Below, in pieces: positions 5,014 through 28,646 of a stretch of DNA of 32,433 nt. Every line of letters starts with the position of its first letter. Within the stretch, counting starts at the first letter, position 1. This stretch comes from Pseudomonadota bacterium (GTDB lineage: Bacteria; Pseudomonadota; Gammaproteobacteria; Steroidobacterales; Steroidobacteraceae), in NCBI GenBank assembly GCA_021845825.1, contig JAJZVF010000009.1, positions 1 through 32,433 on the forward strand, given 5' to 3'. A program made the position numbers and the translations under genes. The notes beneath the pieces are model-generated. The model was not told the DNA's origin. It searched no databases and worked only from the letters and a program-made list of their open reading frames with translations.

Positions 5014-7593
5014 GTGACCCGCAGCGCTTCCGAATGGATCGTCCTCAAGTTCGGGGGGACCAGCGTCTCCTCGCTCGCCAACTGGTGCAATATCGTGCGG
5101 GTGGCCGCCGACCGCGCGTGCGACGGTGCGCGGGTGCTCATCGTGCACTCCGCCGTGAGCGGCATCACCGATCGGCTGGAGAAGCTGCTCGATGCGGCTC
5201 GCAGCGGCACGCACGAGGAGGAGCTGCGTTTCATCGAGGCGCGTCACCTCGGCCTCGCCGCCGAGCTCGGCATCCCCTTGGGCGAGCTCTGCGAGCGCCA
5301 GCTCGCCGAGCTCAGGCAGATCGCCGCCGGCGTCGCCCTCATCGGGGAGGCGAGCGACCGCACCCGAGCGCGTGTCATGGCCTCCGGAGAGCTGATGGCC
5401 ACCGACCTCGGTGCGCGGTTCCTGCGCGCGCAGGGCCTTGAGGCGCAGTGGGCCGATGCACGCACCATGTTGAGCGCCGAGCAGCAGGCCGACGCATCGG
5501 CGAAGGCGAGCGTGCTTTCGGCGGTATGCAATTTCGCGCCCGAGCGCGCGCTCGAGGAGCGCCTGCGTGCAATGGCGCCGATCGTGGTGACGCAGGGGTT
5601 CATTGCCCGTGACGCCGACGGCAACACCGTGTTGCTCGGGCGCGGCGGCTCGGATACCTCGGCAGCGTACTTCGCCGCGAAGCTGCGCGCGCAGCGGCTG
5701 GAGATCTGGACCGACGTTCCGGGCCTGTTCAGCGCCAACCCGCGCTCGACGCCCACGGCGCGTCTGCTGCGCGCCCTGCACTATGACGAGGCGCAGGAGA
5801 TTGCCACCAGCGGCGCCAAGGTGCTGCACCCGCGCTGCATCCTGCCGGTGCGCCAGTACGGCATCCCGCTGCACGTCTATGCCACGCAGGCCCCGCAGCT
5901 CGAGGGCACGGTGCTCTCGGCCGAAGGCGACGACACGGCGCAGGTCAAGGCGGTCTGCACCAAGAAGGGCATCACGCTGGTTTCACTCGAGAGCCCCGGC
6001 ATGTGGCATCAGGTGGGCTTCCTCGCCGACGCCTTCCAGGTGTTCAAGCGCCACGGCATGTCGATCGACCTGGTCTCGACCTCGGAGACCAACGTCACCG
6101 TGTCGCTCGATCCGGCCGCCAACACCCTGGATGCGGCTTTGCTCAATGCGCTGGTGAGCGATCTGTCGCGACTGTGCCGCGTGCAGCTGATCGGCCCTTG
6201 CGCCTCGGTGAGCCTGGTCGGGCGCAACATCCGCGCGATCCTGCACCAGCTGGGCGGTGCGTTCGAGTTCTTCGAGGAGCAGAAGATCTACCTGGTGAGC
6301 CAGGCGGCCAACGACCTGAACTTCACGTTCGTGGTCGACGAAGCCCAAGGCGACCGCCTCGTCGATCAGCTGCACGAGCTGCTCATCCGGCCGGTGGCGG
6401 GCGATCGCGTGCTCGGTCCGACCTGGGAGCAGCTGTTCGCCGGGACGGTGTCCGCGGCGCAGGTCCCTCCGCCCTGGTGGCGCGAGCAGCGCGAGCGGCT
6501 GCTGGCGGCGCTCGGGGAGCGCGACTGCGCGTTTGTCTACCATCTGGAGAGCGCGCGGGCGCGGGCGCGGGCACTGCGCTCGATGGGCTCGGTGGCGCGC
6601 GTGCACTATGCCATGAAGGCCAACCCGCATCCGCAGCTGCTGCGTGCCCTCAGGCAGGAGGGAATCGAGCTGGAGTGTGTCTCGCGCGGCGAGCTCGAGC
6701 GCGTACTCGGATTGTTCGCGGATCTGGATCCGCGCCGCGTGCTCTACACGCCCAATTTCGCCTCGCGCGAGGAGTACCGTTGGGCGCTCGAGCGCGGCGC
6801 GCGGCTGACGGTCGACAACCTGCACGTGCTCGGCTGGGAGAATCTGCTGCGGGGCCGGGAGATCTTCGTGCGGGTCGACACCGGTGTGGGGGCCGGTCAC
6901 CACCAGCATGTGCGCACGGCCGGTGCGCATGCGAAGTTCGGCGTGCCGGTCGCGGATCTCGAGCGCTTCACGCACGAAGCGCAGCGCCGAGGCGCACGCA
7001 TCGTGGGCCTGCAGGCGCACGTGGGCAGCGGGATCTTCGATGTGAGAACCTGGGAGCACACCGCCCGCCAGCTGGCGGGGCTCGCCCGGCACCTGGGCGA
7101 GGTGCGCGTCATCGACATCGGCGGAGGTCTCGGCGTCCCGGAGCGCAGCGATCAGCGTGAGCTCGATCTCGGCAAGCTCGATACGCTGCTCGCCGCCGTG
7201 CGGGCGGAACATCCGCAGCTTGAGATCTGGATGGAGCCCGGGCGGTATCTTTCGGCGCCCGCCGGTGTGCTGCTCGCCCGTGTCACTCAGGTCAAGACCA
7301 AGGGTCAGGTGCGCTACGTCGGTGTGGCGACCGGCATGAACTCTCTGATCCGGCCGGCGCTCTACGGGGCATACCACGAGATCGTCAATCTCACCCGCCT
7401 CGCCGAGCCGGCGAGCGAGGTCGTGAATGTCGTCGGTCCGATCTGCGAAAGCGCCGATGTGCTCGGCCATGATCGTCTGCTGCCCCCGACGCTCGAGGGG
7501 GATGTGCTGCTCATCGCCAACGCCGGCGCGTATGGCCGGGCCATGAGCTCGCACTACAATCTGCGCGATCCGGCCGAGGAGATCGTTCTCTGA
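5014..7593 (+). CDS. lysAC: Bifunctional aspartate kinase / diaminopimelate decarboxylase
   Basis: An 859-residue fusion that catalyses the first and last steps of lysine synthesis: phosphorylation of aspartate and decarboxylation of meso-diaminopimelate. Residues 1-460 are a LysC-type aspartate kinase, with the KFGGTSVSS ATP/aspartate motif, GRGGSDTSAAYFAAKL, and a C-terminal ACT region (HGMSIDLVSTSETNVTVSLD) that would sense lysine. Residues from about 485 are LysA, a PLP fold-III enzyme with the cofactor lysine Lys535 (HYAMKANPHPQ), HVGSGIFD, IDIGGGLG, EPGRYLSAPAG, CESADVLG and the terminal MSSHYNLRDP. The start is the GTG at 5014, with AGGA about seven bases upstream. The fusion is known from Xanthomonadales. 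Its stop overlaps the probable CTG start of mrcB, suggesting coupled translation with cell-wall synthesis, which consumes diaminopimelate. Confidence 0.95.
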   Translation: MTRSASEWIVLKFGGTSVSSLANWCNIVRVAADRACDGARVLIVHSAVSGITDRLEKLLDAARSGTHEEELRFIEARHLGLAAELGIPLGELCERQLAELRQIAAGVALIGEASDRTRARVMASGELMATDLGARFLRAQGLEAQWADARTMLSAEQQADASAKASVLSAVCNFAPERALEERLRAMAPIVVTQGFIARDADGNTVLLGRGGSDTSAAYFAAKLRAQRLEIWTDVPGLFSANPRSTPTARLLRALHYDEAQEIATSGAKVLHPRCILPVRQYGIPLHVYATQAPQLEGTVLSAEGDDTAQVKAVCTKKGITLVSLESPGMWHQVGFLADAFQVFKRHGMSIDLVSTSETNVTVSLDPAANTLDAALLNALVSDLSRLCRVQLIGPCASVSLVGRNIRAILHQLGGAFEFFEEQKIYLVSQAANDLNFTFVVDEAQGDRLVDQLHELLIRPVAGDRVLGPTWEQLFAGTVSAAQVPPPWWREQRERLLAALGERDCAFVYHLESARARARALRSMGSVARVHYAMKANPHPQLLRALRQEGIELECVSRGELERVLGLFADLDPRRVLYTPNFASREEYRWALERGARLTVDNLHVLGWENLLRGREIFVRVDTGVGAGHHQHVRTAGAHAKFGVPVADLERFTHEAQRRGARIVGLQAHVGSGIFDVRTWEHTARQLAGLARHLGEVRVIDIGGGLGVPERSDQRELDLGKLDTLLAAVRAEHPQLEIWMEPGRYLSAPAGVLLARVTQVKTKGQVRYVGVATGMNSLIRPALYGAYHEIVNLTRLAEPASEVVNVVGPICESADVLGHDRLLPPTLEGDVLLIANAGAYGRAMSSHYNLRDPAEEIVL
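7577..7592 (+). promoter_or_regulatory. Ribosome site and CTG start codon for mrcB
   Basis: AGGAG at 7577-7581 is followed after eight bases by CTG at 7590-7592, which shares bases with the lysAC TGA (7591-7593). The geometry matches the usual ATGA start/stop overlap with C in place of A. It is the only plausible initiator upstream of the membrane-anchor codons. Confidence 0.55.
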
Positions 7594-9902
7594 AGCGCGC
7601 AAGCCAACGCCGGGCGCCGGGCAGATCTTCCGCGCGTGCCAGCCGCGGCGCGCAACGTCCATGGCGCAGGCGGCTCCTCGGGGCGGGACTCGCCGTCGCG
7701 CTCCTCGCCTCCGGCGTCTTCGCCGGCTATGTGTTGTATCTCAACAGGCGGGTCACGAGCCGGTTCGAGGCTCTGCACTGGACGCTGCCGGCCCGTGTGT
7801 ACGCCGCTCCGATGCAGCTGTACGCGGGACTGCCGCTTACCGAGGCGCAATTCACGCATGAGCTGAGGCGCCTCTCCTACCGCCGGGTGGCGTGGCTGCG
7901 GGGACCCGGAACCTATCGCATCGGGGACGCACGCGTCGTTGTGATGCTGCGGCCGGCACAGTTCCCCGACCGTGCCCGCGGGGCGATGCGCCTCGCGGTG
8001 ACTTTCGGTGCGGCCGGCATTGCCGGCCTGCGCGCGGGCGCCGGCCGGCAGGTGCCGGTGATCCGCCTCGATCCGCTGCTCATCGGCAGCATCTTTCCGA
8101 GCGACGGGGTCGATCGCATCGTCGTCACCCCGCAGCAGGTCCCGCCGCTGCTGCCGGCGGCGCTGATAGCGGTCGAGGACCGCACGTTCGATACAAACTG
8201 GGGCATCGACCCGCTGGCCATCCTGCGCTCTGCGTGGGTCGATCTGCTCGCCCACCGGTACGCGGAGGGCGCGAGCACCCTGACACAACAGCTCGTGCGC
8301 AGCTACTTTCTCAACGACCGGCGGACGCTGTGGCGCAAGCTGCGCGAGGCCATCATGGCGGTCTCGCTGACCATGCACTTCAGCAAGGCGTCCATCATGA
8401 ACGCCTACCTCAACGACATCTTCCTCGGCCAGGACGGGAGCCGCTCCATCCACGGCTTCGGGCTGGCGAGCGAGTTCTACTTCGGCGAGCCGCTCGCCGA
8501 GCTCGATCTGCCGCAGATCGCGACCCTGGTGGCCATCGTGCGCGGTCCGACTTACTACAATCCGCGCCTCCATCCGCGGCGCGCGCTGGCGCGCCGCAAC
8601 AGGGTGCTGCGCATCCTCGCCCGCCGAGGGATCGTCACCGCGGAGCAGGCCGGGGCGGCCATCCGCGAGCCGCTCGGCGTGACGCCGCTTGCCGCGGGAG
8701 CCTACTATCCGGCCTATATGGACCTGGTACGTCAGACGCTCAAGCGCGATTACCCGCAGCGGGAGCTGACGGAGGCGGGCTTGAGGATCTATACCAGTCT
8801 CGATCCGAGGGTGCAGGCGATCGCCCAGCACGCCCTCGATGCCGAGCTGCACGCTCTGGATCGCTGGCATCACCGCGCTCACGAGCGGCTGCAGGGAGCG
8901 GTGGTGGTGACCTCGCCCCAGACGGGCGATGTGCTGGCGATCGTCGGCGGGCGCGATGCCGATTATGACGGTTTCAACCGTGCGCTCTATGCGCGCCGGT
9001 CAATCGGCTCGACGGTCAAGCCGTTCATCTATCTGACGGCCCTTGAGACAGGCGATTACAATCCGGCAACGATCATCGAGGACGAGCCGATCACCGTCAA
9101 TCTGGGCGCGGGCCGGTACTGGCGCCCGAGGGATTACACACGCGTCGACCTCGGGCCGGTTCCCCTGGTGCGCGCGCTCGCCGATTCGCTGAACGATGCC
9201 ACCGTGAGGCTCGGCATGCGGATCGGTCTTGTCAAGGTGGCTGACACCCTCAAGCGTTTCGGTCTCACCGAGCCGATCGACGAGGTGCCCGCGATGCTGC
9301 TCGGAGCGAGCGATTTGTCGCCGTTCGAGCTGGCGCAGTTGTATAACGGACTTGCAGACGGAGGATTCCGCACGCCACTGCGCGCCGTGCAGGCCGTGGT
9401 CAGTGCCGACGGCAAGCCGCTGCAGGCGTTCCCGGTGCAGGTGACGCAGGTGGCGCCGTCCGCCGATGTTTACCAGGTCACCACCATGATGGAGCAGGTG
9501 GTGCAGCACGGAACGGGAACCCCGGCGCTCGGCATCCTGCCGCCGGGCCTCACGACCGCGGGCAAGACCGGCACTTCGCAGAACGACCGCGACAGCTGGT
9601 TCGCGGGCTTCTCGGGCAGCGACCTGGCGGTCGTCTGGGTCGGATACGATCACGATCAGCCGACCGGCCTCACCGGCTCGATGGGCGCACTGCCGGTGTG
9701 GGCGCACATCATGGCTTCCATCGGCACGCTGCCGCTCAGCATGCCGCCGCCGCAGAGCCTCACCGACGCCTGGATAGACTTTGCAACGGGCCTGCAGACG
9801 ACGCCGGCTTGTGACGGAGACAACGCAGTGCAGATCGCCGTGCCGCAAGGCACGCAGCTGCCGCAGATGGGAGGCTGCGGCCTGGGTGAGGGTCTTCTAT
9901 GA
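7590..9902 (+). CDS. mrcB: Penicillin-binding protein 1B (bifunctional peptidoglycan synthase)
   Basis: A class A PBP that polymerises lipid II and cross-links the chains. From the proposed start it has 770 residues: an Arg-rich cytoplasmic tail, a membrane anchor (LAVALLASGVFAGYVLYL), a UB2H-like regulatory domain (RVYAAPMQLYAGLPLTEAQF), a GT51 glycosyltransferase (Glu196 in AVEDRTF, EGASTLTQQLVRSYF, RNRVLRIL) and a transpeptidase with Ser474 in GSTVKPF, SLN and Lys659 in KTGTS. All key residues are intact. The start is odd. The anchor is coded in frame upstream of the first GTG (7731), but no ATG, GTG or TTG exists in that frame after the stop at 7470. CTG at 7590 overlaps the lysAC stop as CTGA and has an AGGAG site eight bases upstream. 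The 3' end overlaps the next gene by ATGA. Confidence 0.93.
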   Translation: MKRASQRRAPGRSSARASRGAQRPWRRRLLGAGLAVALLASGVFAGYVLYLNRRVTSRFEALHWTLPARVYAAPMQLYAGLPLTEAQFTHELRRLSYRRVAWLRGPGTYRIGDARVVVMLRPAQFPDRARGAMRLAVTFGAAGIAGLRAGAGRQVPVIRLDPLLIGSIFPSDGVDRIVVTPQQVPPLLPAALIAVEDRTFDTNWGIDPLAILRSAWVDLLAHRYAEGASTLTQQLVRSYFLNDRRTLWRKLREAIMAVSLTMHFSKASIMNAYLNDIFLGQDGSRSIHGFGLASEFYFGEPLAELDLPQIATLVAIVRGPTYYNPRLHPRRALARRNRVLRILARRGIVTAEQAGAAIREPLGVTPLAAGAYYPAYMDLVRQTLKRDYPQRELTEAGLRIYTSLDPRVQAIAQHALDAELHALDRWHHRAHERLQGAVVVTSPQTGDVLAIVGGRDADYDGFNRALYARRSIGSTVKPFIYLTALETGDYNPATIIEDEPITVNLGAGRYWRPRDYTRVDLGPVPLVRALADSLNDATVRLGMRIGLVKVADTLKRFGLTEPIDEVPAMLLGASDLSPFELAQLYNGLADGGFRTPLRAVQAVVSADGKPLQAFPVQVTQVAPSADVYQVTTMMEQVVQHGTGTPALGILPPGLTTAGKTGTSQNDRDSWFAGFSGSDLAVVWVGYDHDQPTGLTGSMGALPVWAHIMASIGTLPLSMPPPQSLTDAWIDFATGLQTTPACDGDNAVQIAVPQGTQLPQMGGCGLGEGLL

Positions 9903-10475: not shown

Positions 10476-12455
10476 TCAGCTGTACGAGCCGTGCAGCAGC
10501 GCGGCGAAAGCCGCCGCCTCCGGCGCCAGACTCGTCTCGGCTCCGGGCGGACCGCCGGCCGCCTCCGACTCGGGAAACAGCCGGTAGCTCTCGCTCATGA
10601 CGGCGCGGCCGAACTCGGGGGCGAGCGCCTCGATGAGCTGCGCGAGCCTGCCGCGAGGGGTCGCGAGCCGCACGGGGCGGTGCACGAGTGCCGCGCAGAC
10701 GATATCGGCCGCCTGCTGCGGCTCAAGCAGCGGGACGCGTTGATAGACCCGGGTCGGGGCCACCATGCCCGTGCGCACGAGCGGCATATTGATCACGGTG
10801 AAGCGCACGCCTCGGTCGCGATATTCCGCGGCGGCGCAGCGCGTAAACGCCTCGAGCGCCGCCTTGGAGGCATTGTAGGCGGCGAAACGGGCGGCGTTGC
10901 TCAGCACCCCGATGGAGGAGATGCTGATGACATGCCCCGACCCTCGCGCGGCCATCGCCGGCAGCACACCCAGCGTCACGCGCACCGCGGCGAAATAGTT
11001 GATCCGCATCAGCCGCTCGTAGTCGTGAAACCGGTCGTAGGTGTTCTCGACCGCCCTGCGGATCGAGCGGCCTGCGTTGTTGATGAGCACGTCGATGGGG
11101 CCGTGCTCGCCGAGCAGCCGGGCGATGAGTGCGGTGGCGGCTTCGGCGTCGGTGAGATCGCAGGCATAGGCGGCCACCTCGGCCCCCTGGGCGCGCAGTT
11201 GCGTGGCCGCGTCCTCGAGCTTGACCGGATCGCGCGCCACGATGATCAGCTTCGCGCCGGCGGCGGCGAGCTTTTGCGCCGTTGCGCGTCCGATCCCGGA
11301 CGAGCCTCCCGTGATCAGCACCGTGGCGCCCCGCACCGCATCGCCGAGGTGGCGGCCGCCGGGGCGGTCCGGGTCGAGCTGGCGCTCCCAGTAGTCCCAC
11401 AGCCGCCAAGCATAATCCTCGAGCGCAGGCACGCGGATCCCGGCGCGGGCGAGCAGCTCGGCGGCGCGGCCGGGGTCGAACACGGTCGGATATTCGAGCA
11501 GGCCGATCGCCGATACCGGGATCTTGAGCTCCGCAAGAGCTTCGCGCGCCATCCGTGCGAGCGGCTGCTGCGCCGCGCCGAGCACATGCGCCGAGGCCGT
11601 AAGCGCCTCGAGCAGGGCAGGCTCGATCCAGGATGAGACCGTGGGAGCATGCGCGGCCTCGGCAAACAGGTTCAACGCCTCCATGACGTGCCGATCGCGC
11701 GGATCGGTGAGGTGAAAGCAGCGGCCGTCCTCGCCGGCGAGGTGCGCCAGATGGTCGAGCCCAGCGGCCACGAAGTCGACCGGCACGAGGTTGATGTGCC
11801 CGCCCCGCGGTCCGATGAGCGGCAGCCAGCGGGGCAGGGCATCGCGAAGGCGCTGGATCAGCTTGAAGAGGTAGTAGGGACCGTCGATCTTGTCCATGAC
11901 CCCGCTCTCGGAGTCGCCGACCACCATGCCTGGACGATAGATTCGCCACGGCATGCGGCTCGCGCGCACCAAAGCCTCCGCCTCGTGCTTGCTGCGGAAA
12001 TAAGGATGCTCAAGCCCCTCGGCTTCCTCGAACATCTCCTCCGTGAACACGCCGGGATATCGCCCCGCCACGGCGATCGAGCTCATGTGGTGGAAGCAGC
12101 CCGCCTCGAGCGCCTGTGCAAGCTCGAGCGCATTGCGGGTGCCGAGCACGTTGGCCTGCTCGAGCGGCGCGGCCGGCGCGGCCAGGTCATAAAGCGCACC
12201 CAGGTGAAAAAAATGCCGGATCCGGCCGCGCAGCCTCGCCTGCTCGCCCGGCGCAATGCCGAGGCGCTCGGTGTCGAGGTCTCCCGCGATCGGTACGAGC
12301 AGATGCGCGGCTTGTCCGAAGCCGGTGCGCAGCCGCTCAAAGCGCGCCAGGGAGGCGGGCCGCACGAGCAGGTAGATCGGCTCGCCCCTCAGCGCCAGGC
12401 GCCCGAGGAGCCGCCGGCCGATGAATCCGGTCCCGCCGGTGATGAAGTAGCCCAT
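10476..12455 (-). CDS. Two-domain fatty acyl-CoA reductase (SDR-SDR fusion)
   Basis: A 659-residue protein made of two short-chain dehydrogenase folds. Residues 1-365 are an extended SDR with TGGTGFIG (6-13), HLGALYDL, and Tyr152/Lys156 (PYFRSK), resembling the male-sterility/acyl-CoA reductase type. Residues 376-620 are a classical SDR with TGGSSGIG (382-389), NNAG (459-462), ISSIG and Tyr527/Lys531 (YNASK). This order and length match the Marinobacter Maqu_2507-type fatty acyl-CoA reductase, which reduces acyl-CoA through the aldehyde to a fatty alcohol with NADPH. I chose the ATG at 12455 because the Rossmann strand starts immediately after it; an open extension upstream runs antisense into the next gene. 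It diverges from a wax ester synthase gene, which would use the alcohol product. It is convergent with the lipoprotein gene, 22 bases apart. Confidence 0.88.
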   Translation of the reverse strand: MGYFITGGTGFIGRRLLGRLALRGEPIYLLVRPASLARFERLRTGFGQAAHLLVPIAGDLDTERLGIAPGEQARLRGRIRHFFHLGALYDLAAPAAPLEQANVLGTRNALELAQALEAGCFHHMSSIAVAGRYPGVFTEEMFEEAEGLEHPYFRSKHEAEALVRASRMPWRIYRPGMVVGDSESGVMDKIDGPYYLFKLIQRLRDALPRWLPLIGPRGGHINLVPVDFVAAGLDHLAHLAGEDGRCFHLTDPRDRHVMEALNLFAEAAHAPTVSSWIEPALLEALTASAHVLGAAQQPLARMAREALAELKIPVSAIGLLEYPTVFDPGRAAELLARAGIRVPALEDYAWRLWDYWERQLDPDRPGGRHLGDAVRGATVLITGGSSGIGRATAQKLAAAGAKLIIVARDPVKLEDAATQLRAQGAEVAAYACDLTDAEAATALIARLLGEHGPIDVLINNAGRSIRRAVENTYDRFHDYERLMRINYFAAVRVTLGVLPAMAARGSGHVISISSIGVLSNAARFAAYNASKAALEAFTRCAAAEYRDRGVRFTVINMPLVRTGMVAPTRVYQRVPLLEPQQAADIVCAALVHRPVRLATPRGRLAQLIEALAPEFGRAVMSESYRLFPESEAAGGPPGAETSLAPEAAAFAALLHGSYS

Positions 12456-12567
12456 AAGTCGAGCGCCACGCGCCACGGTGATGGCACGGTATGCCCGGGA
12501 AGGGCCCATTCGCGCATCGTGACAAACCGAGGGGCACAATCGGAGCGACTCGCGGGAAACTAGCCCC

Positions 12568-13995
12568 ATGTCGGCCGAACGCATGTCCAGCGTCGATCGG
12601 GCATGGCTGTTGATGGACCGCCCCGCCAATCCGATGACGATTGTCGGGCTGATCGTGCTCGAGCAGCCGATCGAGCTCGAGCCGCTGCGCGCGCTCATCG
12701 GCCAGCGCCTGCTCGCCTTCCCGCGCTTTCGGCAGACACCGGTGGCCGGTGTGCTCGAGGGCAGCTGGGTCGAGACTGCCGCCTTCAGCCTCGATGACCA
12801 CGTGCGCTCGATCGCGCTGCCCTCGCCCGGGAACCAGCGACAGCTCGAACTTCTCGGCGGTGAGCTCGCCAGCACGCCGTTTCCACCCGGCCGTCCGCTT
12901 TGGTCGTTTCATCTTATCGGCGAGTATCGCGGCGGCAGCGCCATCATCGTGCGGATCCATCACTGTTATGCCGACGGAGTTGCCCTGCTTAAGGTCTTGC
13001 TCGCGCTTGCGGATGCGCAAGGTGCAGGCGCAAGCCCCCTGCAGTTGAGCAGCTCGCTGCAGGCTGCCGTGCCGCACACGGGGCAGCGCCTCTGGTCGGC
13101 ACTGCTCGACACGTTCCGCCAGGGGGCTGATCTGCTCGAGGCAGGGCTGCATTACACTTTGCACCCGGGGGAGGCTGCGGGGCTTGCCGGTGAGGCGCTC
13201 GGCATCGGCGCGCAGTGGCTGCGGCTCGCCGCGCTTGCAGGCGAGCCGTCCACGCGTCTCAAGCGCCCGCTTTCCGGCAGTCGCCGACTCGCCTGGGCGC
13301 GGGCGCTGTCGCTCGAGGAGGTGCACACGATCGGCCGCTTTCTCGGCTGCACGGTCAACGACGTATTGATCTCGATCCTGGCCGGAGCGCTCGGACGGTA
13401 CTTGGACACCGCAGGCGAGTCGGTCGCCGGGCTGACGATTCGGGCGGCGGTTCCCGTGAACCTCAAGCCGGCGGCCCTGGAGCAGCCGGCGGCGGATCAG
13501 CTCTCCCTCGGCAATCGCTTCGGTCTGGTGTTCGTCGAGCTGCCGATCGGTGTGCGCCACCCGCTCGAGAGGCTGTATACGGTGCAGGCCGGGACGAAGG
13601 CGCTGAAGGGCTCGGCACAGGCGCTCGCCACCTTCGATCTGCTGTGGCTGGTCGGCGCGCTTCCTCCCAACGTGGAGGAGTATGCGCTTTCCCTGTTCAG
13701 CGCCAAGGTCAGCCTCGTGGCCTCGAATCTTCCCGGCCCTGCCGAGGCGCTAGCGCTCGCCGGCCGGCGCATCAGCGAGGTACTCTTCTGGGTGCCGCAA
13801 TCCGGCAGCGTGGGCGCGGGTGTCAGCATGCTCACGTACTGCGGACGGGTTCAGTACGGCGTCATGGCCGATCGCGAGCTGATTCCTGATCCGGCCCGCC
13901 TGGTCGCGCTTCTTGCCGAGGAGTTCGAGCGGCTGGCGCTGTTGGTGCTTCTCGGCAGCGTCGCTCTCGAGCCGCAGTGCGCATCGCTCCCTTGA
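12568..13995 (+). CDS. Wax ester synthase / acyl-CoA:diacylglycerol acyltransferase (WS/DGAT)
   Basis: A 475-residue acyltransferase that joins acyl-CoA to a long-chain alcohol (wax ester) or to diacylglycerol (triacylglycerol) at the membrane or lipid-body surface. It carries the catalytic HHxxxDG motif (HHCYADG, His131-Gly137), the Asn264-Asp265 motif (TVNDVLISILAGALGRYL), RPLSGSRRLAWARALSLEEV near 233-252, and SNLPGP followed by a hydrophobic C-terminal domain (VSMLTYCGRVQYGVMADRE). The N-terminus SSVDRAWLLMDRPANPM is typical, so the ATG at 12568 is secure, although its ribosome site is weak. Only 112 bases separate it from the divergent fatty acyl-CoA reductase. A C-terminal stretch after about residue 455 (LALLVLLGSVALEPQCASLP) has no clear family match. 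Which product dominates cannot be read from sequence. Confidence 0.93.
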   Translation: MSAERMSSVDRAWLLMDRPANPMTIVGLIVLEQPIELEPLRALIGQRLLAFPRFRQTPVAGVLEGSWVETAAFSLDDHVRSIALPSPGNQRQLELLGGELASTPFPPGRPLWSFHLIGEYRGGSAIIVRIHHCYADGVALLKVLLALADAQGAGASPLQLSSSLQAAVPHTGQRLWSALLDTFRQGADLLEAGLHYTLHPGEAAGLAGEALGIGAQWLRLAALAGEPSTRLKRPLSGSRRLAWARALSLEEVHTIGRFLGCTVNDVLISILAGALGRYLDTAGESVAGLTIRAAVPVNLKPAALEQPAADQLSLGNRFGLVFVELPIGVRHPLERLYTVQAGTKALKGSAQALATFDLLWLVGALPPNVEEYALSLFSAKVSLVASNLPGPAEALALAGRRISEVLFWVPQSGSVGAGVSMLTYCGRVQYGVMADRELIPDPARLVALLAEEFERLALLVLLGSVALEPQCASLP

Positions 13996-14055
13996 AAGGG
14001 AGTGCCCGCGGACAATACAAGTGCAGTCCGGGGAGCGCGCGCGCTCGGCGGGCGC

Positions 14056-14087
14056 CGCGCAGCGGGGGGGCGTAAACCCGCTGCGCG
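14056..14087. terminator. Candidate bidirectional terminator hairpin between convergent genes
   Basis: CGCGCAGCGGG (14056-14066) pairs perfectly with CCCGCTGCGCG (14077-14087), leaving a ten-base loop. It sits in the 111-base gap between the WS/DGAT stop (13995, plus) and the TPR gene stop (14107, minus), where a shared terminator is expected. No T-run follows on either strand, so efficiency is doubtful. Confidence 0.4.
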
Positions 14088-14106
14088 CGTGCTGCGGATC
14101 TGCCGA

Positions 14107-14961
14107 TTAGGGCAGCCCCGCCTTGGCGCGCTCGATGTCGAGCCGCTCCATCTCGTCGGCGGGCTTGCACGCGGCCGCGTCCCGGTAAAGTGCTTGCGCC
14201 TGCGCGCGATAGCGCGCCGCATCGAGCAGCATCAGTCCGTGGGCGAACTCCATGTGCACGATCGGCGAGTCCGGGGCGAGGGCATTCGCCCGCCGGAAGT
14301 GCTCGAGCGCCTCGCGCTGCGAGGCGCCGTAGGCGAGGCCCGCGGTGAGCGCGCCGAGCTTGGCGAGGATCTCGGCGTGGAACAGCCCGAAGGCGAGATG
14401 CGCCTCGGCATGCCGAGGCTCGAGCGCGAGAGCACGCTCGAGGTGCGTGCGCACCCGGCCCGCCAGACCCTTGGCGAGGGCGGCGGCGATCGAGATGCGC
14501 TGGCTGTAGCGGCCCAGAACCAACGCCAGCGTGTAATGCGTGTTGGCGTGCTCGGGAAGCTCGCCGACCGCGCGCTCGCCCCGCTCGATGGCGGACTCGA
14601 GTGCGCTCAGCGTCGCGGCGGCGCTGCGCCTGGAGTAGAGCGAGTCGACGGCCGCCGCCTTGTTGGCGACGGCTGCGCCGAGCGCCCCGAGCGCCCCGCC
14701 GAGCCGGACCGCTCTTACGAAATCTCCCGCGTGAAACTCTTGCCAGGCTTCTTGCAATACCCGGGCCACCGCGGCGGCCCCGCCGTGGGCGTCGATCCAG
14801 GAGGCCAGGTGCGGGTGGCCGGCGCCGAGGCGGCCGAGGAGGCGCTCTTCGGGCCAGGGTTCCCGGTCGGTGCGATGCAGCCGCGCCCAGCGCTCGTGCA
14901 GCCGCGGCGGCGGGCCGCGGCGGGCGGTGGAGGCGCGGACCGGAGCGTTTGTTCGACTCAT
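14107..14961 (-). CDS. TPR-like hypothetical protein beside the phasin gene
   Basis: A 284-residue protein I do not recognise. It is predicted soluble, with no signal peptide. The N-terminal third has a conserved-looking block (ERWARLHRTDREPWP, then VLQEAWQEFHAGDFVRAVRL). The rest is helical with TPR-style pairs: HANTHYTLALVLGRYSQRIS near 135-155, LERALALEPRHAEAHLAFGL near 175-195, and HFRRANALAPDSPIVHMEFA near 220-240. Start: the ATG at 14961 is the first that leaves a plausible protein; a long open extension upstream crosses the phasin and patatin genes antisense. It diverges from the phasin gene over 123 bases and lies tail-to-tail with WS/DGAT. Position suggests a role in storage granules, perhaps as a scaffold, but this is inference. 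Confidence 0.75.
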   Translation of the reverse strand: MSRTNAPVRASTARRGPPPRLHERWARLHRTDREPWPEERLLGRLGAGHPHLASWIDAHGGAAAVARVLQEAWQEFHAGDFVRAVRLGGALGALGAAVANKAAAVDSLYSRRSAAATLSALESAIERGERAVGELPEHANTHYTLALVLGRYSQRISIAAALAKGLAGRVRTHLERALALEPRHAEAHLAFGLFHAEILAKLGALTAGLAYGASQREALEHFRRANALAPDSPIVHMEFAHGLMLLDAARYRAQAQALYRDAAACKPADEMERLDIERAKAGLP

Positions 14962-15084
14962 AAGGCCCTGCTGTGGCAAGTACGAATCCAGCCGATCGAT
15001 CGTGTCCTCTATAGTACGTAGGCCGGATATGGCGCCCAGTCGGGCAAATACGCATAGGCGGCCGTGGCCGCAAAGAGGAATGGC

Positions 15085-15570
15085 ATGGCAACCCGGAGCA
15101 AGTCCCGCAAAACCTCCCGCGCGGCCGCGGGCAGCACCTCGGCCGCGCTGCTCGCTGCGCTGCATCAGATCTACCTCGCCGGCCTCGGCGCGGCCAACCG
15201 GGCGCGCAGCGGCGCTCCCGAGCTGTTCGAAGAGCTCGTCGCCGAGGGCGCGCGCGTCCAAGCCGACAGCGGCGCCGCCGCCGCGCGGGCGTTTCAGGCG
15301 ATCGTCAGCGATGCGCAATCGAAGGTGAGCGCACGGGTCGGGCAGGTGCGCACTCAGGCGGCCGATGCGCTCGAGGGGCTGGAGAAGATGTTCCAGACGC
15401 GGGTGCATCGCGCGCTCACGCAGCTCGGCGTGCCGAGCGCCGAGCAGCTCTCGGCGCTGTCGAAGCGGGTCGATGCGCTCAACACAAACATCGAGCGTCT
15501 GGCGCGCCGGCCGCAGGCCGCACGTGCGGCGCGCCGCAAGCCGGCCAGGTCCCCGATGTCCGCGCGCTGA
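15085..15570 (+). CDS. Phasin-like granule-associated protein
   Basis: A 161-residue protein with a basic N-terminus (MATRSKSRKTSRAAAG), a long amphipathic helical centre with no membrane segment (LFEELVAEGARVQADSG, then SKVSARVGQVRTQAADALEG) and a Lys/Arg/Ala-rich tail (RRPQAARAARRKPARS). This matches the PhaI/PhaF type of poly(hydroxyalkanoate) granule-associated phasins, which coat storage granules; the basic tail resembles the DNA-binding tail of PhaF-like proteins. ALTQLGVPSAEQLSALSKRV is also typical of this group. The start at 15085 is supported by AGAGGA about six bases upstream. It begins a co-directional row with the patatin gene (6 bases later). No PHA synthase is in the window, so whether it coats PHA or neutral-lipid bodies is open. 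Confidence 0.85.
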   Translation: MATRSKSRKTSRAAAGSTSAALLAALHQIYLAGLGAANRARSGAPELFEELVAEGARVQADSGAAAARAFQAIVSDAQSKVSARVGQVRTQAADALEGLEKMFQTRVHRALTQLGVPSAEQLSALSKRVDALNTNIERLARRPQAARAARRKPARSPMSAR

Positions 15571-15576
15571 GGCCGG

Positions 15577-16809
15577 ATGCTGACCCTTGAGCCCGCCCTG
15601 GCGCAGGACAGCTCCCGCCGCCGGGCAGGCGCCGGCAAGCTGGCGATCGCGCTCGCCGGCGGCGGGCCGCTCGGAGCGTTCTACGAGATCGGCGCGCTGC
15701 ACGCACTCGGTGAGGCAATCATCGGCCGCGCGCTCACCGACTTCGATGTCTACGTCGGGGTGAGTTCCGGGGCGCTGGTGGCCGCCGGTCTCGCCAACGG
15801 CTTCGACACGACCACCCTCGGCTCGACGTTCATTCACGATGAGTCGACGGCGATTCCATTTTCACCGGCGACGCTCATGCGTCCGGCCCTGGGCGAATAC
15901 GGCAGGCGGATCCGGCTGTTCCCGGAGGTGCTTGCGGGCCTCGTCCGCCTGTACTCGCGCAGCGCATGGCCCGGCGCTGCCGATGCCCTGGGTGCGCTCA
16001 TACCGGGCGCGCTGTTCGACAACGAGCCTCTCGAGCGCTATTTGCACGCGGCCTTCAGTGCGCAAGGCCACACGGATGACTTCCGCGAACTCGCCCGTCG
16101 CCTCTATGTCGTCGCCACCGACCTCAACACGGGTGAGTCGGTCTCCTTCGGCACACGGCAGCACGCCCGGGTGCCGATCTCTCGGGCGGTTGTGGCGAGC
16201 GCGGCGCTGCCGGGACTTTATCCGCCGGTGAGAATCGACGGACACGAATACGTCGACGGCGCGCTCGTACACACCATGCATGCATCGCTCGCGCACGAGC
16301 AGGGCTGCCGACTGGTGATCTGCATCAATCCGCTGGTTCCCTTCGACGCCGCGCACGCCTCGGGCGCCGAGCGCATCAACCTCACCCGCCGCGGCCTGCC
16401 CGCTGTCCTCGGCCAGACGTTCCGCGCGCTCATCTACTCGCGCATGCAGGTCGGCATGGCCGGCTATCGCGCGCGCTTCCCGCTCGCCGACACACTGCTG
16501 CTCGAGCCGGACCGCCACGACGAGAAAATTTTCTTCGCGAACGTGTTCGGCTACACCGGCCGGCGCCAGCTCGCCGCTCATGCCTACGAGCGCACGCGCG
16601 CCGATCTGCTGGCGCAGGCGGACAGGCTTGCGCCCATCCTGCGCCGGCACGGACTCGAGCTCGACGTGCATCGGCTGCGCGACCGCGAGCGCACGTTCTG
16701 CACATCGGCGAAGGAAAGGCACCGCGACGTCCGGCACCTCACGCGTAAGCTGGATGGCGCGCTCGACCGCCTGGAGCATCTGCTGGTGGGCGGGTTTGCG
16801 GGAGAATAG
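15577..16809 (+). CDS. Patatin-like phospholipase / lipid-body lipase
   Basis: A 410-residue patatin-domain hydrolase with a Ser-Asp catalytic dyad. The oxyanion loop GGGPLG is at 28-33, the nucleophile Ser63 lies in GVSSG (61-65), and the catalytic Asp227 is in the DGA box (HEYVDGALV). VVASAALPGLYPPVRIDG is the expected segment before the DGA box. No export signal is evident, so it is probably cytoplasmic. Patatins of this layout hydrolyse acyl esters, including triacylglycerol, phospholipid and possibly PHA. Lying six bases after the phasin gene and five before an alpha/beta hydrolase, it is likely a storage-lipid mobilising enzyme. The C-terminal 80 residues (ERTRADLLAQADRLAPILRR) form a helical extension, rich in charge, that could bind granules. 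Confidence 0.9.
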   Translation: MLTLEPALAQDSSRRRAGAGKLAIALAGGGPLGAFYEIGALHALGEAIIGRALTDFDVYVGVSSGALVAAGLANGFDTTTLGSTFIHDESTAIPFSPATLMRPALGEYGRRIRLFPEVLAGLVRLYSRSAWPGAADALGALIPGALFDNEPLERYLHAAFSAQGHTDDFRELARRLYVVATDLNTGESVSFGTRQHARVPISRAVVASAALPGLYPPVRIDGHEYVDGALVHTMHASLAHEQGCRLVICINPLVPFDAAHASGAERINLTRRGLPAVLGQTFRALIYSRMQVGMAGYRARFPLADTLLLEPDRHDEKIFFANVFGYTGRRQLAAHAYERTRADLLAQADRLAPILRRHGLELDVHRLRDRERTFCTSAKERHRDVRHLTRKLDGALDRLEHLLVGGFAGE

Positions 16810-16814
16810 ACGCC

Positions 16815-17720
16815 GTGGCGGCGCGCTTCTGGGCGCTCGTGCTGGCGGCGCGGCTGTTGGTAGCGGTGGCCGCGGCCGCCGCGGCGGCCGCACTCCTGCG
16901 TCTGTCCATTGTAGCGACAGTGGCGGCCGGTGCGACGGTCTGGTGTCTTATTTCCCTGACGGCGGTTGCGGCCTCGTTCGCCGCCGCGCGAGCCGGCGCG
17001 CATTCGACCCGGACCCGACCGGGGGCGATGAGGCTGGTGCGGATCGTTTGCGCCGAGACGCTGGCGCTCGACATGACGCTGTGGCGCATGGCGGCCGAGC
17101 CGCTGCTCGCACGCCTCGATCGATTCGTCGGGTCCGGCAGTCAGCCGCCGGCCAGGGTCGTGCTGGTGCACGGTCTCGCCTGCAATCGCGCGGTGTGGGG
17201 ACCGCTGCGCGCGGCGCTGCGTCTTGCGGGCATCGAGGGGGTGTATGCGGTAAACCTGGAGCCGCTGTTTGCCGACATCGACAGGTACGCCCGGGATCTG
17301 CTCGCCGGGCTCGAGGCACTCGGGGCTTCGCCCGCCCGGCCGGTGGCGATCGTTGCCCACAGCATGGGCGGCCTGGTTGCCCGCGCGGCGCTGCGCGAGG
17401 CGAGGACGGGAACCATCAGCCGGATCATCACCATCGGCACGCCGCATCTTGGCACGGTCGTGGCCTGCCGATTTCCGTGGCTGAACACGCGGCAGATGTG
17501 CTGCGGATCCCGTTGGCTTCTCGAGCTCAACGCGCAGCAGGAGGCGCGGCTCGCTCTGGCCGTGACGAGCCTCTACAGCCACGACGACAACCTCATCGTC
17601 CCGGCGAGCGGCGCGGCCCTCTGCGGTGCCCGCTCGATCGGTTTTCCGGACCTGGGGCATCTCAGTCTGTTGTACTCGCCCAGGATCCTGCGCACGATCG
17701 TCGCTGAGCTCGGCGCGTGA
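16815..17720 (+). CDS. Membrane-anchored alpha/beta hydrolase (lipase-like)
   Basis: A 301-residue esterase/lipase. The first 65 residues contain two hydrophobic segments (ARLLVAVAAAAAAAALLRL and VAAGATVWCLISLTAVAASF), a likely membrane or granule anchor. The catalytic domain follows, with VVLVHGLACNRAVWGPL (oxyanion region), the nucleophile Ser183 in AHSMGG, IIITIGTPHLGT-like strand and cap residues (ITIGTPHLGTVVA), an Asp in YSHDDNLIVP, and a His in DLGHLSLLYSP. This is a lipase-class triad resembling bacterial triacylglycerol lipases. The GTG start at 16815 is supported by GGAGA eight bases upstream. It lies five bases after the patatin gene, and its stop overlaps the next GTG. The substrate is inferred from context as a storage ester. 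Confidence 0.85.
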   Translation: MAARFWALVLAARLLVAVAAAAAAAALLRLSIVATVAAGATVWCLISLTAVAASFAAARAGAHSTRTRPGAMRLVRIVCAETLALDMTLWRMAAEPLLARLDRFVGSGSQPPARVVLVHGLACNRAVWGPLRAALRLAGIEGVYAVNLEPLFADIDRYARDLLAGLEALGASPARPVAIVAHSMGGLVARAALREARTGTISRIITIGTPHLGTVVACRFPWLNTRQMCCGSRWLLELNAQQEARLALAVTSLYSHDDNLIVPASGAALCGARSIGFPDLGHLSLLYSPRILRTIVAELGA

Positions 17721-18481
17721 TCGATGTTCTCTCCCGCAAGGAGACCGACCGGCTGCTCGAGCGCAAGGCGCGGCTGAGCGCGTGGCTCGCCGCGCGGCCG
17801 CAGCTTGCGGCCCGGCTGCGGGTGCTGCGGACGTGGCAGGCCGAGCGGCTTGCCCGCACCTATGCGGATCTGCGCGCCGATCCGCAAGGCGAGGGAGCCG
17901 TGGACTTTTTTCTGACCGATCTCTACGGCCCGCGGGATTTCACGCGCCGCGATGCCGAGCTGAGGCGCGCCTGGGGCGTGCTGCGGCGCACGCTGCCGCC
18001 TTTCATGCGCGCCGTGCTCGCTCTGGCCATCGAGCTCGAAGTGTTGAGCGAGGAACTCGATCTCGATGTGGCGCGACATCTGCCGCCCGGGCAGATCACG
18101 CCCGAGTCCTATGCGCGCGCCTATCGGGCCGCCGGCCGGCCCGAGGCACGTCGCCGTCAGATCGAGCTCACGCTGGAAGTCGGCCGGCGCCTCGCCCGGG
18201 CGGTGCGCATGCCGCTGGTCGGGCGCGCGTTGCGAGCGGCACGTACGCCGGCACGTATGGCTGGCTTCGGCCTGCTCCAGGATTTCCTCGAGCGCGGCTT
18301 TGCCGCCTTTGCACGCATGCCGAGTGCCGCGCCGCTCCTTGCGGCCATTCGCGAGCGCGAAACCGCGTTCATGTCTTCGCTGCTTGCAGGGACGCCGGGC
18401 GATCCTGTGGCCGCCGCCGACGGCGGCCCCGCGACGGCGGTCAATCAAAAGCTTCCTGGCGGTCGTCGCCGACCTCGATGA
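17717..18481 (+). CDS. Uncharacterised FFLxxLYGPxDFxxRD-motif protein
   Basis: A 254-residue predicted helical, Arg/Ala/Leu-rich cytoplasmic protein. I do not recognise a named function. The most conserved-looking part is VDFFLTDLYGPRDFTRRDAE at about 62-81, with an acidic patch later (AIELEVLSEELDLDVARHLP). The C-terminal part is amphipathic (RMAGFGLLQDFLERGFAAFA), which could contact lipid. It starts with a GTG that overlaps the preceding hydrolase stop (GTGA), so the two are translationally coupled. This makes it the last member of the phasin-patatin-hydrolase row. The last 41 bases overlap the tail of the convergent Rieske gene, so its final dozen residues are under double constraint. A role in storage-granule metabolism is inferred from position only. 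Confidence 0.75.
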   Translation: MIDVLSRKETDRLLERKARLSAWLAARPQLAARLRVLRTWQAERLARTYADLRADPQGEGAVDFFLTDLYGPRDFTRRDAELRRAWGVLRRTLPPFMRAVLALAIELEVLSEELDLDVARHLPPGQITPESYARAYRAAGRPEARRRQIELTLEVGRRLARAVRMPLVGRALRAARTPARMAGFGLLQDFLERGFAAFARMPSAAPLLAAIRERETAFMSSLLAGTPGDPVAAADGGPATAVNQKLPGGRRRPR

Positions 18482-23247: not shown

Positions 23248-23796
23248 TCACGCGGTGAGCTCGCGGGCGGCCTGCGCCAGGACCTTCGACACGTAGGCGG
23301 CGAACGAGCGCCAGACCTCGAGGTGGAAGCTGTGCTCGCCGGTGCGCCAGAGCACGATTTCCGCCTTGGCGAGCACGGTGCGGGTGCACATGCCTACGGG
23401 GAAGGCACTTGGATCGAGGTCGAGCGGGCAGCCGCAGTTGAGCAGCACGCCGGCTTGCGGACCGCTTACCTCGAGTGCGCACTGGCGGTGTGTGACATCG
23501 ACCAGGGAGTGGGCCCGGCCGGCGAGCGCCGCGCTCAGCCGCTCGCTCAGCTCCATGAGCTGACTTTGCGGGGCGAGCAGCAGCCGCTCATCGGGTCCGA
23601 GCCACAGGCCCGCGCGGCCGGATGCGCAGACGGCGCGACAGGCGGTGTCGGTAAAGGGCAGGCCGAGTGCTGCCAGAGCTGCCGCCCTGGCATCGGCGCC
23701 GCCCCGCAGCAGCAAACGCGTCATGGGCGAAAGGGGACGCACGAGGGGGCTTGCCGCGACGTACGGCCCCTGGCGGGCGGCGGACAGGTCACGCAT
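23248..23796 (-). CDS. soxG: Sarcosine oxidase gamma subunit
   Basis: A 182-residue gamma subunit of heterotetrameric sarcosine oxidase, and the last gene of the soxBDAG operon. It resembles a shortened aminomethyltransferase fold: LGPDERLLLAPQS, LVDVTHRQCALEVSGPQAGV, LNCGCPLDLDPSAFPVGMCT, RTVLAKAEIVLWRTGEHSFH and WRSFAAYVSKVL are all familiar for SoxG. The subunit helps assemble the alpha-beta core in the cytoplasm. Its start overlaps the soxA stop by eight bases, indicating translational coupling. The family is confidently assigned through both sequence and position. Confidence 0.93.
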   Translation of the reverse strand: MRDLSAARQGPYVAASPLVRPLSPMTRLLLRGGADARAAALAALGLPFTDTACRAVCASGRAGLWLGPDERLLLAPQSQLMELSERLSAALAGRAHSLVDVTHRQCALEVSGPQAGVLLNCGCPLDLDPSAFPVGMCTRTVLAKAEIVLWRTGEHSFHLEVWRSFAAYVSKVLAQAARELTA

Positions 23797-26791: not shown

Positions 26792-27093
26792 GCGGTGGCC
26801 TTTCGCGGCTGCGCCTGCGCTGGCACCGGAGGCTGCTCGCCGATTTTGTACGTGGCAAGGAATTGATCCGATGTCGTGTCGCGCAAGGCGTTGAAGAAGC
26901 GGCCGCACCCGTGGGTGTGCCGCCAGCGCTCCGCGTGCACGCCCTTGATGTTGTCACGGCGGTAGAGGTAATCCGCCCATTGCTGGTCGGAACACTCGGC
27001 GGGACTGCCGGGACGGGCGATGTGAGCCTGGCCGCCGTGCACGAACTCGAGCTCCGGGCGCTCGCCGCAGTAGGGGCAGTTGATCAGCAGCAT
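26788..27093 (-). CDS. soxD: Sarcosine oxidase delta subunit
   Basis: A 101-residue zinc-binding delta subunit. It has the CPYCGERPELEF knuckle (Cys6, Cys9), then His/Cys residues around HAERWRHTHGCGRFFNALRD, and WADYLYRRDNIKG between; all are family hallmarks. By family knowledge it binds Zn through three Cys and one His and stabilises the alpha-beta complex. It lies 17 bases after soxB and overlaps soxA by ATGA. The length is normal. Confidence 0.95.
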   Translation of the reverse strand: MLLINCPYCGERPELEFVHGGQAHIARPGSPAECSDQQWADYLYRRDNIKGVHAERWRHTHGCGRFFNALRDTTSDQFLATYKIGEQPPVPAQAQPRKATA

Positions 27094-27110
27094 CGAATGC
27101 TCCTTGTCCC

Positions 27111-28361
27111 TCAGTGGGCGACCGCGGCGGCGGCGGCCTCGTCGATCAGGTTGCCGTCGCGGAAGCGCTCGATGGTGAAGGGAGCGTTGATCGGATGGGG
27201 GGCGTCGTGGGCGATGGTCCAGGCGAGCAGGTGAGCCGCGCCCGGGGTGGCCTTGAACCCGCCGGTGCCCCAGCCGCAGTTGACATAGAGCCCGGGCACG
27301 GGCGTCTTGGCGATGATGGGCGAGCGGTCCGGTGTGACATCGACGATGCCGCCCCAGCTGCGCAGCATGCGCAACCGCCTGAACATGGGAAACAGCTCGC
27401 AGATCGCCTCGAGCGCGTGGCGGCTGATGTGCAGCCCGCCGCGCTGGGTATACGAGGTGTACGCGTCCGTGCCGGCGCCGATCACCATCTCGCCCTTGTC
27501 CGACTGGCTGATGTAGGCGTGTATGGTGTTGGACATCACCACGCAGGGGAAGATCGGCTTCACCGGCTCGGATACCAGCGCCTGCAGCGGGTAGCTCTCG
27601 ATCGGCAGATCGACGCCCGCCATCCTCATGATGACGCTGCTGTGACCGGCGGCCGAGACCCCGATCCTGGGTGCGCGGATCGTACCGCGGGTGGTGTCGA
27701 CGCCGCTGACGGCGCCGCCGGCGTCACGGCGGATGCCGAGGACCTCGCAGTTCTCGATGATGTCCACGCCGAGCGCGTCGGCCGCCCGGGCAAATGCCCA
27801 GGCCACCGCATCGTGACGGGCGGTCCCGCCGCGCCTCTGGAATGCCGCACCGAGCACCGGGTAGCGGATGTCGTCGACCTTCAACAGCGGGCAGTGCGCG
27901 CGCGCTTCTTCCGAGGTCAGCCATTCGTTGTCGACGCCGTTGGCGCGATTGGCGTGCACGTGCCGCTGGGACACCTGGACGTCGTGAACCGTGTGCGCGA
28001 GCATCATGACGCCGCGCTGGGAAAACATCACGTTGTAGTTGAGGACCTGCGAGAGGCTTTCCCACAACTGCACCGAGTGATCGTAGAGCGCGGCGCTTTC
28101 GTCGAACAGGTAGTTCGAGCGGATGATGGTGGTGTTGCGCCCGGTGTTGCCGCCGCCGATCCAGCCCTTCTCCAGCACCGCAACCCTGGTGATGCCGTGC
28201 TCCTTCGCCAGGTAGAAGGCCGCCCCGAGGCCGTGGCCGCCGCCGCCGACGATGATGGCGTCGTAGTCGGGCTTGGGCTCTGCCCGGCGCCATTGAGGCT
28301 GCCAGCCGCGCTGACCGTTGAGACCCCGCCGGATGAGCGACAGGCCGGAGAAGCGTTGCAT
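27111..28361 (-). CDS. soxB: Sarcosine oxidase beta subunit
   Basis: A 416-residue flavoprotein of the DAO family and the catalytic subunit. The FAD-binding Rossmann motif is [20 protein letters not shown] (36-55), followed by [16 protein letters not shown]. His183 in [10 protein letters not shown] is at the position of the histidine that covalently binds FMN in heterotetrameric sarcosine oxidases. The C-terminal [15 protein letters not shown] and [15 protein letters not shown] segments are typical. I chose the ATG at 28361 because the protein then starts [20 protein letters not shown] as in relatives, with AAGGA eight bases upstream. It is the first gene of soxBDAG and diverges from the MttB homologue across 302 bases. 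Confidence 0.96.
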
Positions 28362-28387
28362 GGTCGGGTCCTTCGGTGGCGAAAGGG

Positions 28388-28427
28388 GGACGGCTGCGGC
28401 GCATGATGCCGTCTGGATGCGCCGTCC
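28388..28427 (-). promoter_or_regulatory. Nested stem-loop in the soxB leader
   Basis: GGACG (28388-28392) can pair with CGTCC (28423-28427), enclosing GCGCAT (28399-28404) paired with ATGCGC (28417-28422). A competing pairing of GACGGC (28389-28394) with GCCGTC (28408-28413) is also possible. If soxB is transcribed from upstream, this lies in its 5' leader shortly before the ribosome site. It matches no riboswitch class I know. Confidence 0.3.
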
Positions 28428-28589
28428 ACGAGCATGCGCGCGCCGGGGCGCTTGTACGGTAGCGACATGCGTGCGGCGGCCGCCCGAAGGTTCCGCAGCG
28501 TAGGGTTCCCGCAGGGGCGCCGTCCGTGCGGCCTGAACCGGCCGAAGCCCGGCGCGACGGTTCTGGGCAAGTCGAGGCCGCAAATCGGT

Positions 28590-28642: not shown

Positions 28643-28646
28643 TCAT
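28617..28646 (-). promoter_or_regulatory. Candidate promoter for soxBDAG
   Basis: On the minus strand ATGACA (28646-28641, five of six matches to the -35 consensus) is followed after 18 bases by GATAGT (28622-28617, four of six). It overlaps the right arm of the 28590-28642 inverted repeat, so a protein bound there could block transcription. The implied leader of about 250 bases is long, which lowers confidence. Confidence 0.28.

Follow-up and report, generated by a model that had tools for sequence, protein, structure and literature searches.

A probable wax-ester body cassette of seven genes conserved in Proteobacteria

Here we describe a seven-gene unit on a 32,433-nucleotide stretch of DNA (contig JAJZVF010000009.1 of GenBank assembly GCA_021845825.1, from a gammaproteobacterium of the family Steroidobacteraceae), which was analysed as a whole and is called the window below. 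Judging from its gene content and its recurrence in relatives, the locus is probably a conserved proteobacterial cassette for bodies of neutral lipid, most likely wax ester. It encodes a fatty acyl-CoA reductase, a wax ester synthase/diacylglycerol acyltransferase (WS/DGAT), a tetratricopeptide repeat (TPR)-like protein, a phasin, a patatin-like acyl hydrolase, an alpha/beta hydrolase and a protein of the 'FFLEELY motif protein' family. Two observations carry the reading: these genes stay together in relatives, in reshuffled order, and FFLEELY and phasin genes accompany WS/DGAT almost without exception across genomes. Given these neighbourhood and co-occurrence counts, the gene arrangement is not a matter of chance.

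A first-pass annotation of positions 12568 to 18481 had proposed a storage-granule locus in which phasin, patatin, hydrolase and a protein with an FFLxxLYGP motif run in one direction with gaps of 6, 5 and -4 bases, and the four genes do lie on the plus strand with spacings of +6, +5 and -4 nucleotides (nt). Each gene that it named is present in the list of open reading frames (ORFs) and matches its family in Pfam and NCBIfam scans, the TPR-like gene weakly. The WS/DGAT gene that it placed beside this run lies upstream, and the TPR-like gene stands between the two, on the minus strand and divergent from the phasin gene. Two points needed amending: the divergent reductase gene (10476-12455) is part of the unit and had been left outside, the unit being one gene longer than the segment first noted; and the FFLxxLYGP protein, there counted among uncharacterised parts, already has a family name in NCBIfam (NF047641, 'FFLEELY motif protein'), though one that carries no function. 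The unit is laid out as follows:

10476-12455, minus strand: fatty acyl-CoA reductase, two-domain, PRK07201 / NF005539 type, 659 residues (by NF005539 score and domains)
12456-12567: divergent promoter region of the reductase and WS/DGAT genes, with element CATCGTGRYAAACCGA at 12515-12530
12568-13995, plus strand: WS/DGAT, 475 residues (TIGR02946)
14107-14961, minus strand: TPR-like protein (weak TPR matches; conserved in relatives)
14962-15084: divergent promoter region of the TPR-like and phasin genes, with direct copies of GGCAARTACGNAT at 14975-14988 and 15043-15056
15064-15570, plus strand: phasin (PF05597), with an alternative start at ATG 15085
15577-16809, plus strand: patatin-like acyl hydrolase (PF01734)
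16815-17720, plus strand: alpha/beta hydrolase with N-terminal hydrophobic segments (several Pfam families)
17717-18481, plus strand: FFLEELY motif protein (NF047641)

Conserved linkage and co-occurrence

An alignment of FFLEELY proteins was scanned over a genome collection of 84,980 species, and of 128 confirmed hits the 80 best were taken as loci; because the scan worked with a single peptide pattern, FFLEELY proteins in which this pattern is retained are over-represented among them. By their record labels the loci come mostly from Gamma- and Betaproteobacteria, with a few from Alphaproteobacteria; the flanks fetched on either side were 8 kb long at most and in many cases shorter. Counted with profiles that started from the window proteins and were refined by iteration over the same loci, the partners found near FFLEELY in the 80 loci were patatin (49), phasin (45), alpha/beta hydrolase (31), WS/DGAT (30), reductase (29) and TPR (26); the reductase figure is for full-type genes, the profile having given 31 with short genes of the short-chain dehydrogenase/reductase (SDR) type in L103 and L113, which were discounted. 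The genes flanking the unit in the window serve as a built-in control: its Rieske protein and exonuclease III recur in 1/80 loci each, both in the close relative L117.

Dereplication at 85% FFLEELY identity left 71 loci, of which 28 had at least 7 kb on both sides. Among these 28, patatin was present in 21, phasin in 20, reductase in 16, WS/DGAT in 13, and TPR and hydrolase in 12 each, with at least one partner in 27 and all six in 6. The conserved linkage on which the first-pass annotation had staked its reading is thus found in the neighbourhood check, through reshuffled gene orders. The order of the window occurs in eight loci (L110, L114, L116, L117, L121, L123, L136 and L138), loci with at least four families give 19 distinct order strings, some of them mere truncations of one another, and L140, labelled Kiloniellales, holds all seven genes in a different order. 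Among the carriers are two that have been cultured, Chitinimonas taiwanensis (L092) and Parachitinimonas caeni (L084), in both of which five of the seven genes are clustered. An unbiased clustering of ORFs from 95 sources (the 80 loci, 14 from a phylum sample and the window, with one member per added cluster named by Pfam) recovered the cassette families again among the clusters listed, and added PHA_gran_rgn (31), an AMP-binding acyl-CoA synthetase (23), a TetR regulator (15) and an acyl-CoA binding protein (ACBP, 8).

Co-occurrence was counted in 78 genomes of the order, some of them fragmentary, and in 299 genomes of the phylum, the window's own genome being in both samples. The 80 loci and the loci of the order were counted separately, although the same contig sometimes occurs in both sets, as with L056 and L116. 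FFLEELY is present in 28/78 order genomes, all 28 of which have a WS/DGAT match (26 over cut-off; partial matches below it in G004 and G019), and WS/DGAT occurs without FFLEELY in 3/50 (G028, G065 and, weakly, G070). The association has a Fisher p of 4e-18; kinship is handled by a genus-level test alone, which gives 13/13 versus 3/21 genera with p 6e-7. Phasin over cut-off is found in 23/78 genomes, every one with both FFLEELY and WS/DGAT, and weaker matches in G004 (with FFLEELY) and in G027 and G076 (without). It lies less than 3 kb from FFLEELY in 18 of the 23; the other five all belong to family f7, where it is within 2 kb of WS/DGAT in two. The reductase over cut-off (16/78) is confined to FFLEELY genomes, and the TPR-like family at E <= 1e-117 (6/78) to window-type loci. 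In the phylum sample, FFLEELY is present in 15/299 genomes, 14 of which have WS/DGAT at E <= 1e-70; it is found in 14/17 WS/DGAT genomes of the window's class and in 0/18 of other classes.

Component proteins and promoter regions

The reductase scores 838.8 bits with NF005539 (cut-off 549) over model positions 1-649 of 657, starts with an ATG at 12455 and has NAD_binding_4 and adh_short domains in the Pfam scan; a YxxxK motif stands in each of its two Rossmann domains, with Y and K kept in 28/28 and 29/29 aligned sequences. This and the other catalytic-residue checks used alignments from linked loci, with 28 to 46 sequences per family, the window's included. WS/DGAT reaches 362.6 bits with TIGR02946 (cut-off 309.95), and its catalytic HHxxxDG reads HHCYADG at 131-137, with H, H, D and G in 28/28 sequences; its relatives by sequence in the Protein Data Bank (PDB) are 7nxg and 6chj. 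By their catalytic residues, fully conserved in the alignments, the core enzymes are intact. Family score and architecture, rather than a direct alignment to MAQU_2507, suggest that the reductase is an alcohol-forming enzyme of the MAQU_2507 type, which would supply the fatty alcohol for wax esters. A mycobacterial protein of 650 residues that is 40% identical to MAQU_2507, FCR1/Rv3391, is described as turning acyl-CoA into fatty aldehyde and alcohol (PMC3522743), and SDR genes 49.5-61.9% identical to MAQU_2507 are reported near WS/DGAT in sediment bacteria (PMC10351704).

The patatin (PF01734, 103.7 bits, cut-off 27.7) keeps its catalytic GxSxG and DG dyad in 44/44 and 46/46 sequences. An identity as a CBASS or anti-phage patatin was rejected, the score with the CBASS phospholipase model NF041079 being 43.7 bits against a cut-off of 200. 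The alpha/beta hydrolase is over cut-off with PF07819, PF12697, PF05057, PF01674 and PF02450, and its catalytic S, D and H are fully conserved in the aligned sequences; it is probably membrane-anchored, since a hydrophobic segment precedes the domain in 27/32 sequences by a simple hydropathy cut. For the TPR-like protein, the TPR label rests on weak matches (PF13414 at 24.0 in a first look, cut-off 26.8), and an identity with the magnetosome protein MamA was rejected (NF040959, 20.6 bits, cut-off 200). With 57% mean column identity across 14 relatives, it is a conserved member of the cassette, and we propose it as a putative scaffold.

The 112-nt region from which the reductase and WS/DGAT genes diverge contains CATCGTGRYAAACCGA exactly, where 0.03 matches with at most two mismatches would be expected. 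The element is exact in 8/8 same-order relatives and appears in no other of the 183 loci save L056, which is the contig of L116; L107, L112 and L118, more distant loci in which the two genes also diverge, are without it. Between the TPR-like and phasin genes, both direct copies of GGCAARTACGNAT are visible in eight relatives, the second being degenerate in L123. As a regulon marker the phasin-promoter element GGSAARTACGCAYC proved too unspecific, with 123 own-genome matches at up to two mismatches versus 66 for the reversed control, and in the ORF lists of four stretches at other element sites (L172, L177-L179) no lipid-storage gene was recognised. A home-made motif finder gave no convincing motif common to the two promoter regions, and a consensus scan no sigma-70-type promoter. 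The conserved control elements fit a co-regulated unit.

The proposed stored lipid and its coat

We infer the following course for the proposed system. The two-domain reductase would convert acyl-CoA to fatty alcohol with NADPH, and WS/DGAT would join the acyl group of a second acyl-CoA to that alcohol, or to diacylglycerol, in an ester bond. The ester product would gather into a droplet, which the phasin would coat as other phasins do granules of polyhydroxyalkanoate (PHA), while the patatin and the membrane-anchored alpha/beta hydrolase would free acyl chains on demand; FFLEELY would work on the surface of the droplet, either as a gatekeeper or as a partner of the hydrolases, and the TPR-like protein would act as a scaffold. 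The earlier proposal that the segment makes, coats and consumes neutral-lipid bodies finds support in linkage and co-occurrence, with coating and consumption as its putative steps. Its description as self-contained holds from acyl-CoA onwards; genes for acyl-CoA synthetase and ACBP occur in only some relatives' clusters and are not among the identified window genes.

A number of observations weigh against this reading. None of the six partners was found in 11/80 loci, some of them cut by contig ends. Within the order, four FFLEELY genomes (G008, G019, G022 and G033) have no phasin match and G004 has one below cut-off only (n = 28), FFLEELY and phasin are unlinked in the five genomes of family f7, the reductase over cut-off is absent from 12/28 FFLEELY genomes, and a PHA synthase is present in 12/28. 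Five family f12 genomes without FFLEELY have relatives of the TPR-like protein at E about 1e-42. In the phylum sample, G119 has FFLEELY with no WS/DGAT match, and FFLEELY is missing from the 18 WS/DGAT genomes of other classes and from 3/17 in the class; WS/DGAT therefore does not need FFLEELY. Finally, both hydrolase families, patatin and alpha/beta, play other parts elsewhere and are often phospholipases.

These observations lend some substance to alternatives. In FFLEELY genomes without a reductase, the product may be triacylglycerol (TAG), or a different enzyme may supply the alcohol; and WS/DGAT enzymes are bifunctional, so that the whole cassette could be one for TAG or mixed acyl esters, its reductase serving another pathway. 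We hold this to be unlikely, given that the reductase and WS/DGAT genes of the window and of eight same-order relatives share a divergent promoter with a conserved element, and that the full-length reductase stands in 29/80 loci. The frequent phospholipase activity of both hydrolase families, the unlinked FFLEELY and phasin of family f7, and the position of FFLEELY beside a GDSL lipase gene in G119 would also suit a membrane- or lipid-remodelling operon (phospholipase plus esterase) that lies beside wax-ester genes, with FFLEELY and phasin acting in membrane stress. Such an operon would not account for the way FFLEELY and phasin almost always accompany WS/DGAT across the 78 genomes, for the 14/15 in the phylum sample, or for a clustering with WS/DGAT and reductase that is reshuffled yet retained, and we consider it very unlikely.

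The phasin raises the further alternative of a PHA granule locus, in which the phasin would coat PHA, the hydrolases would degrade it and WS/DGAT would be an unrelated neighbour. The family to which it belongs (PF05597, 97.6 bits, cut-off 28.8) takes its name from PHA granules, PHA_gran_rgn (PF09650) genes recur in relatives' clusters (near FFLEELY in 31/95 sources, including L092, L093 and L104), PHA synthase is present in the 12 FFLEELY genomes mentioned above, and a phasin near WS/DGAT has been read as PHA metabolism (PMC10351704). Nevertheless, no PHA synthase was found in the own genome (G000, 90.5% complete) or in its congener G066 (99% complete), either as a PF07167 match or with TIGR01836 (class III) at E <= 1e-30. 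Across the order, PF07167 is found in 32/78 genomes (31 over cut-off) and is unassociated with phasin (9/23 phasin genomes versus 23/55 others, p 1.0) and with FFLEELY (12/28 versus 20/50); 14/23 phasin genomes are without it, whereas phasin and WS/DGAT occur together in 23/23. The phasin also falls below the cut-off of the PHA granule-associated model TIGR01837 (80.7 bits, cut-off 94.7), which cuts both ways, counting against a PHA granule and against our own reading. On the synthase that was not found and on the way phasin follows WS/DGAT across the 78 genomes we set the PHA-granule reading aside as highly improbable, and for the same two reasons the phasin of the wax-ester cassette probably coats lipid bodies. 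The case that the first-pass annotation had itself seen as fatal, a phasin binding PHA only with a synthase encoded elsewhere, thus did not materialise.

There is a precedent for such a coat in the phasin PhaP1, which, when produced in bacteria that store TAG, binds to their TAG inclusions (PMC6273058, citing Hanisch 2006). The own genome has no match to PF09361 (Phasin_2) or to PHA_gran_rgn; the latter is found in 7/78 order genomes, all of family f7, and may be a family that also serves lipid bodies. The start codon of the window phasin may be the internal ATG 15085, which is the start in its close relative L117. In L071, L072, L073 and L074, from family f7 genomes, tandem phasin-like genes lie away from FFLEELY.

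The FFLEELY family and known storage systems

The window protein is a clear member of NF047641 (218.7 bits, cut-off 55), and the tie of this family to neutral-lipid storage, which its functionless name leaves aside, is proposed here. In 52 of the 71 dereplicated loci a cassette gene lies less than 1 kb from FFLEELY, the nearest being alpha/beta hydrolase (23), phasin (11), patatin (10), WS/DGAT (6) or reductase (2); the other 19 have none within 1 kb. Because hydrolases and phasin are its commonest neighbours, and because its start in the window overlaps the hydrolase stop by 4 nt, we favour a role as a droplet-surface partner of the hydrolases. Since 17 aligned members keep 45% mean column identity with 17 invariant columns, its conservation looks more like that of a binding or docking surface than of a bare amphipathic coat. 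An AlphaFold2 model is all-helical and confident (pLDDT 87.9, pTM 0.81), and hydropathy gives no transmembrane-like segment. No solved sequence relative was found, the PDB matches up to E 1 being two myosin entries at E 0.3 alone; Foldseek gave no significant match (best E 0.49, TM-score 0.16), and the best VIA-align Z of 5.5, with a root-mean-square deviation of 5.0 over 122 residues, is of a kind common for helical bundles.

Other settings of the family were seen as well. In L162 (6945-13912), FFLEELY stands directly upstream of ubiE (Pfam) and of a gene that we take to be UbiB-like; a WS/DGAT gene lies 1.2 kb off, separated by an ORF (8682-9605) that matches no Pfam family. UbiB-like genes recur in L154 and in seven of L162-L170. 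The FFLEELY gene of G119 (L171, 9503-10213), with its GDSL lipase neighbour and no WS/DGAT match, is possibly a divergent use of the family. Elsewhere in the window, at 23789-31174, sarcosine-oxidase-like subunit genes adjoin an MttB-family methyltransferase gene (PF06253) with no in-frame stop, followed by an ORF that is presumably PurU-like, a possible methylamine or betaine catabolic cluster; at 5014-7593, amino acid kinase/ACT and diaminopimelate-type decarboxylase domains are fused in one protein of 859 residues.

The wax-ester pathway of Marinobacter and Acinetobacter (MAQU_2507 or ACR1, plus WS/DGAT) uses the same two enzyme families and the same logic as the window. In the window this pair has a common divergent promoter and stands with FFLEELY, a phasin, a TPR-like protein and both hydrolases. 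PHA granule systems, arranged in Pseudomonas as phaC-phaZ-phaD-phaF-phaI, share with it a PF05597 phasin beside hydrolases and a logic of coating and consuming; they differ in that the window genome and its congener have no detected PHA synthase and that the window-type phasin tracks WS/DGAT. Actinobacterial lipid droplets, with MLDS (PMC5504291) or HBHA (PMC6176652), are described as neutral-lipid inclusions with dedicated surface proteins, as is proposed for the window, although their coats differ from its proposed phasin coat. WS/DGAT neighbourhoods in coastal sediment metagenomes include a MAQU_2507-like SDR, ACBP and a PHA-system protein, with a phasin in one scaffold; the main text of that study does not mention 'patatin', and its neighbourhood section has neither the seven-gene cassette nor FFLEELY (PMC10351704).

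WS/DGAT, MAQU_2507-type reductases, their adjacency, and heterologous phasin binding to TAG inclusions are thus already in print (PMC10351704, PMC3522743, PMC6273058). We found no mention of 'FFLEELY' in the literature searched, and no description of the seven-gene cassette in the titles and abstracts that the searches returned. With the core chemistry known, what appears to be new is that seven genes form a conserved cassette of varying order, that its phasin is statistically tied to WS/DGAT, and that FFLEELY is linked to neutral-lipid storage.

The locus names candidates for a proteobacterial lipid-body coat, the phasin, and for the mobilisation of what it covers, and a group of phasins labelled 'PHA' would be reassigned to lipid bodies in genomes without a detected PHA synthase; a so far unexplained family, FFLEELY, gains a specific and testable role. 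More tentatively, the cassette could be a dedicated, modular wax-ester organelle kit of Proteobacteria, with its own phasin coat and with FFLEELY as a helical gatekeeper through which the patatin and the membrane hydrolase dock onto the droplet, a bacterial analogue of perilipin. If this is true, FFLEELY would represent a new class of lipid-body protein.

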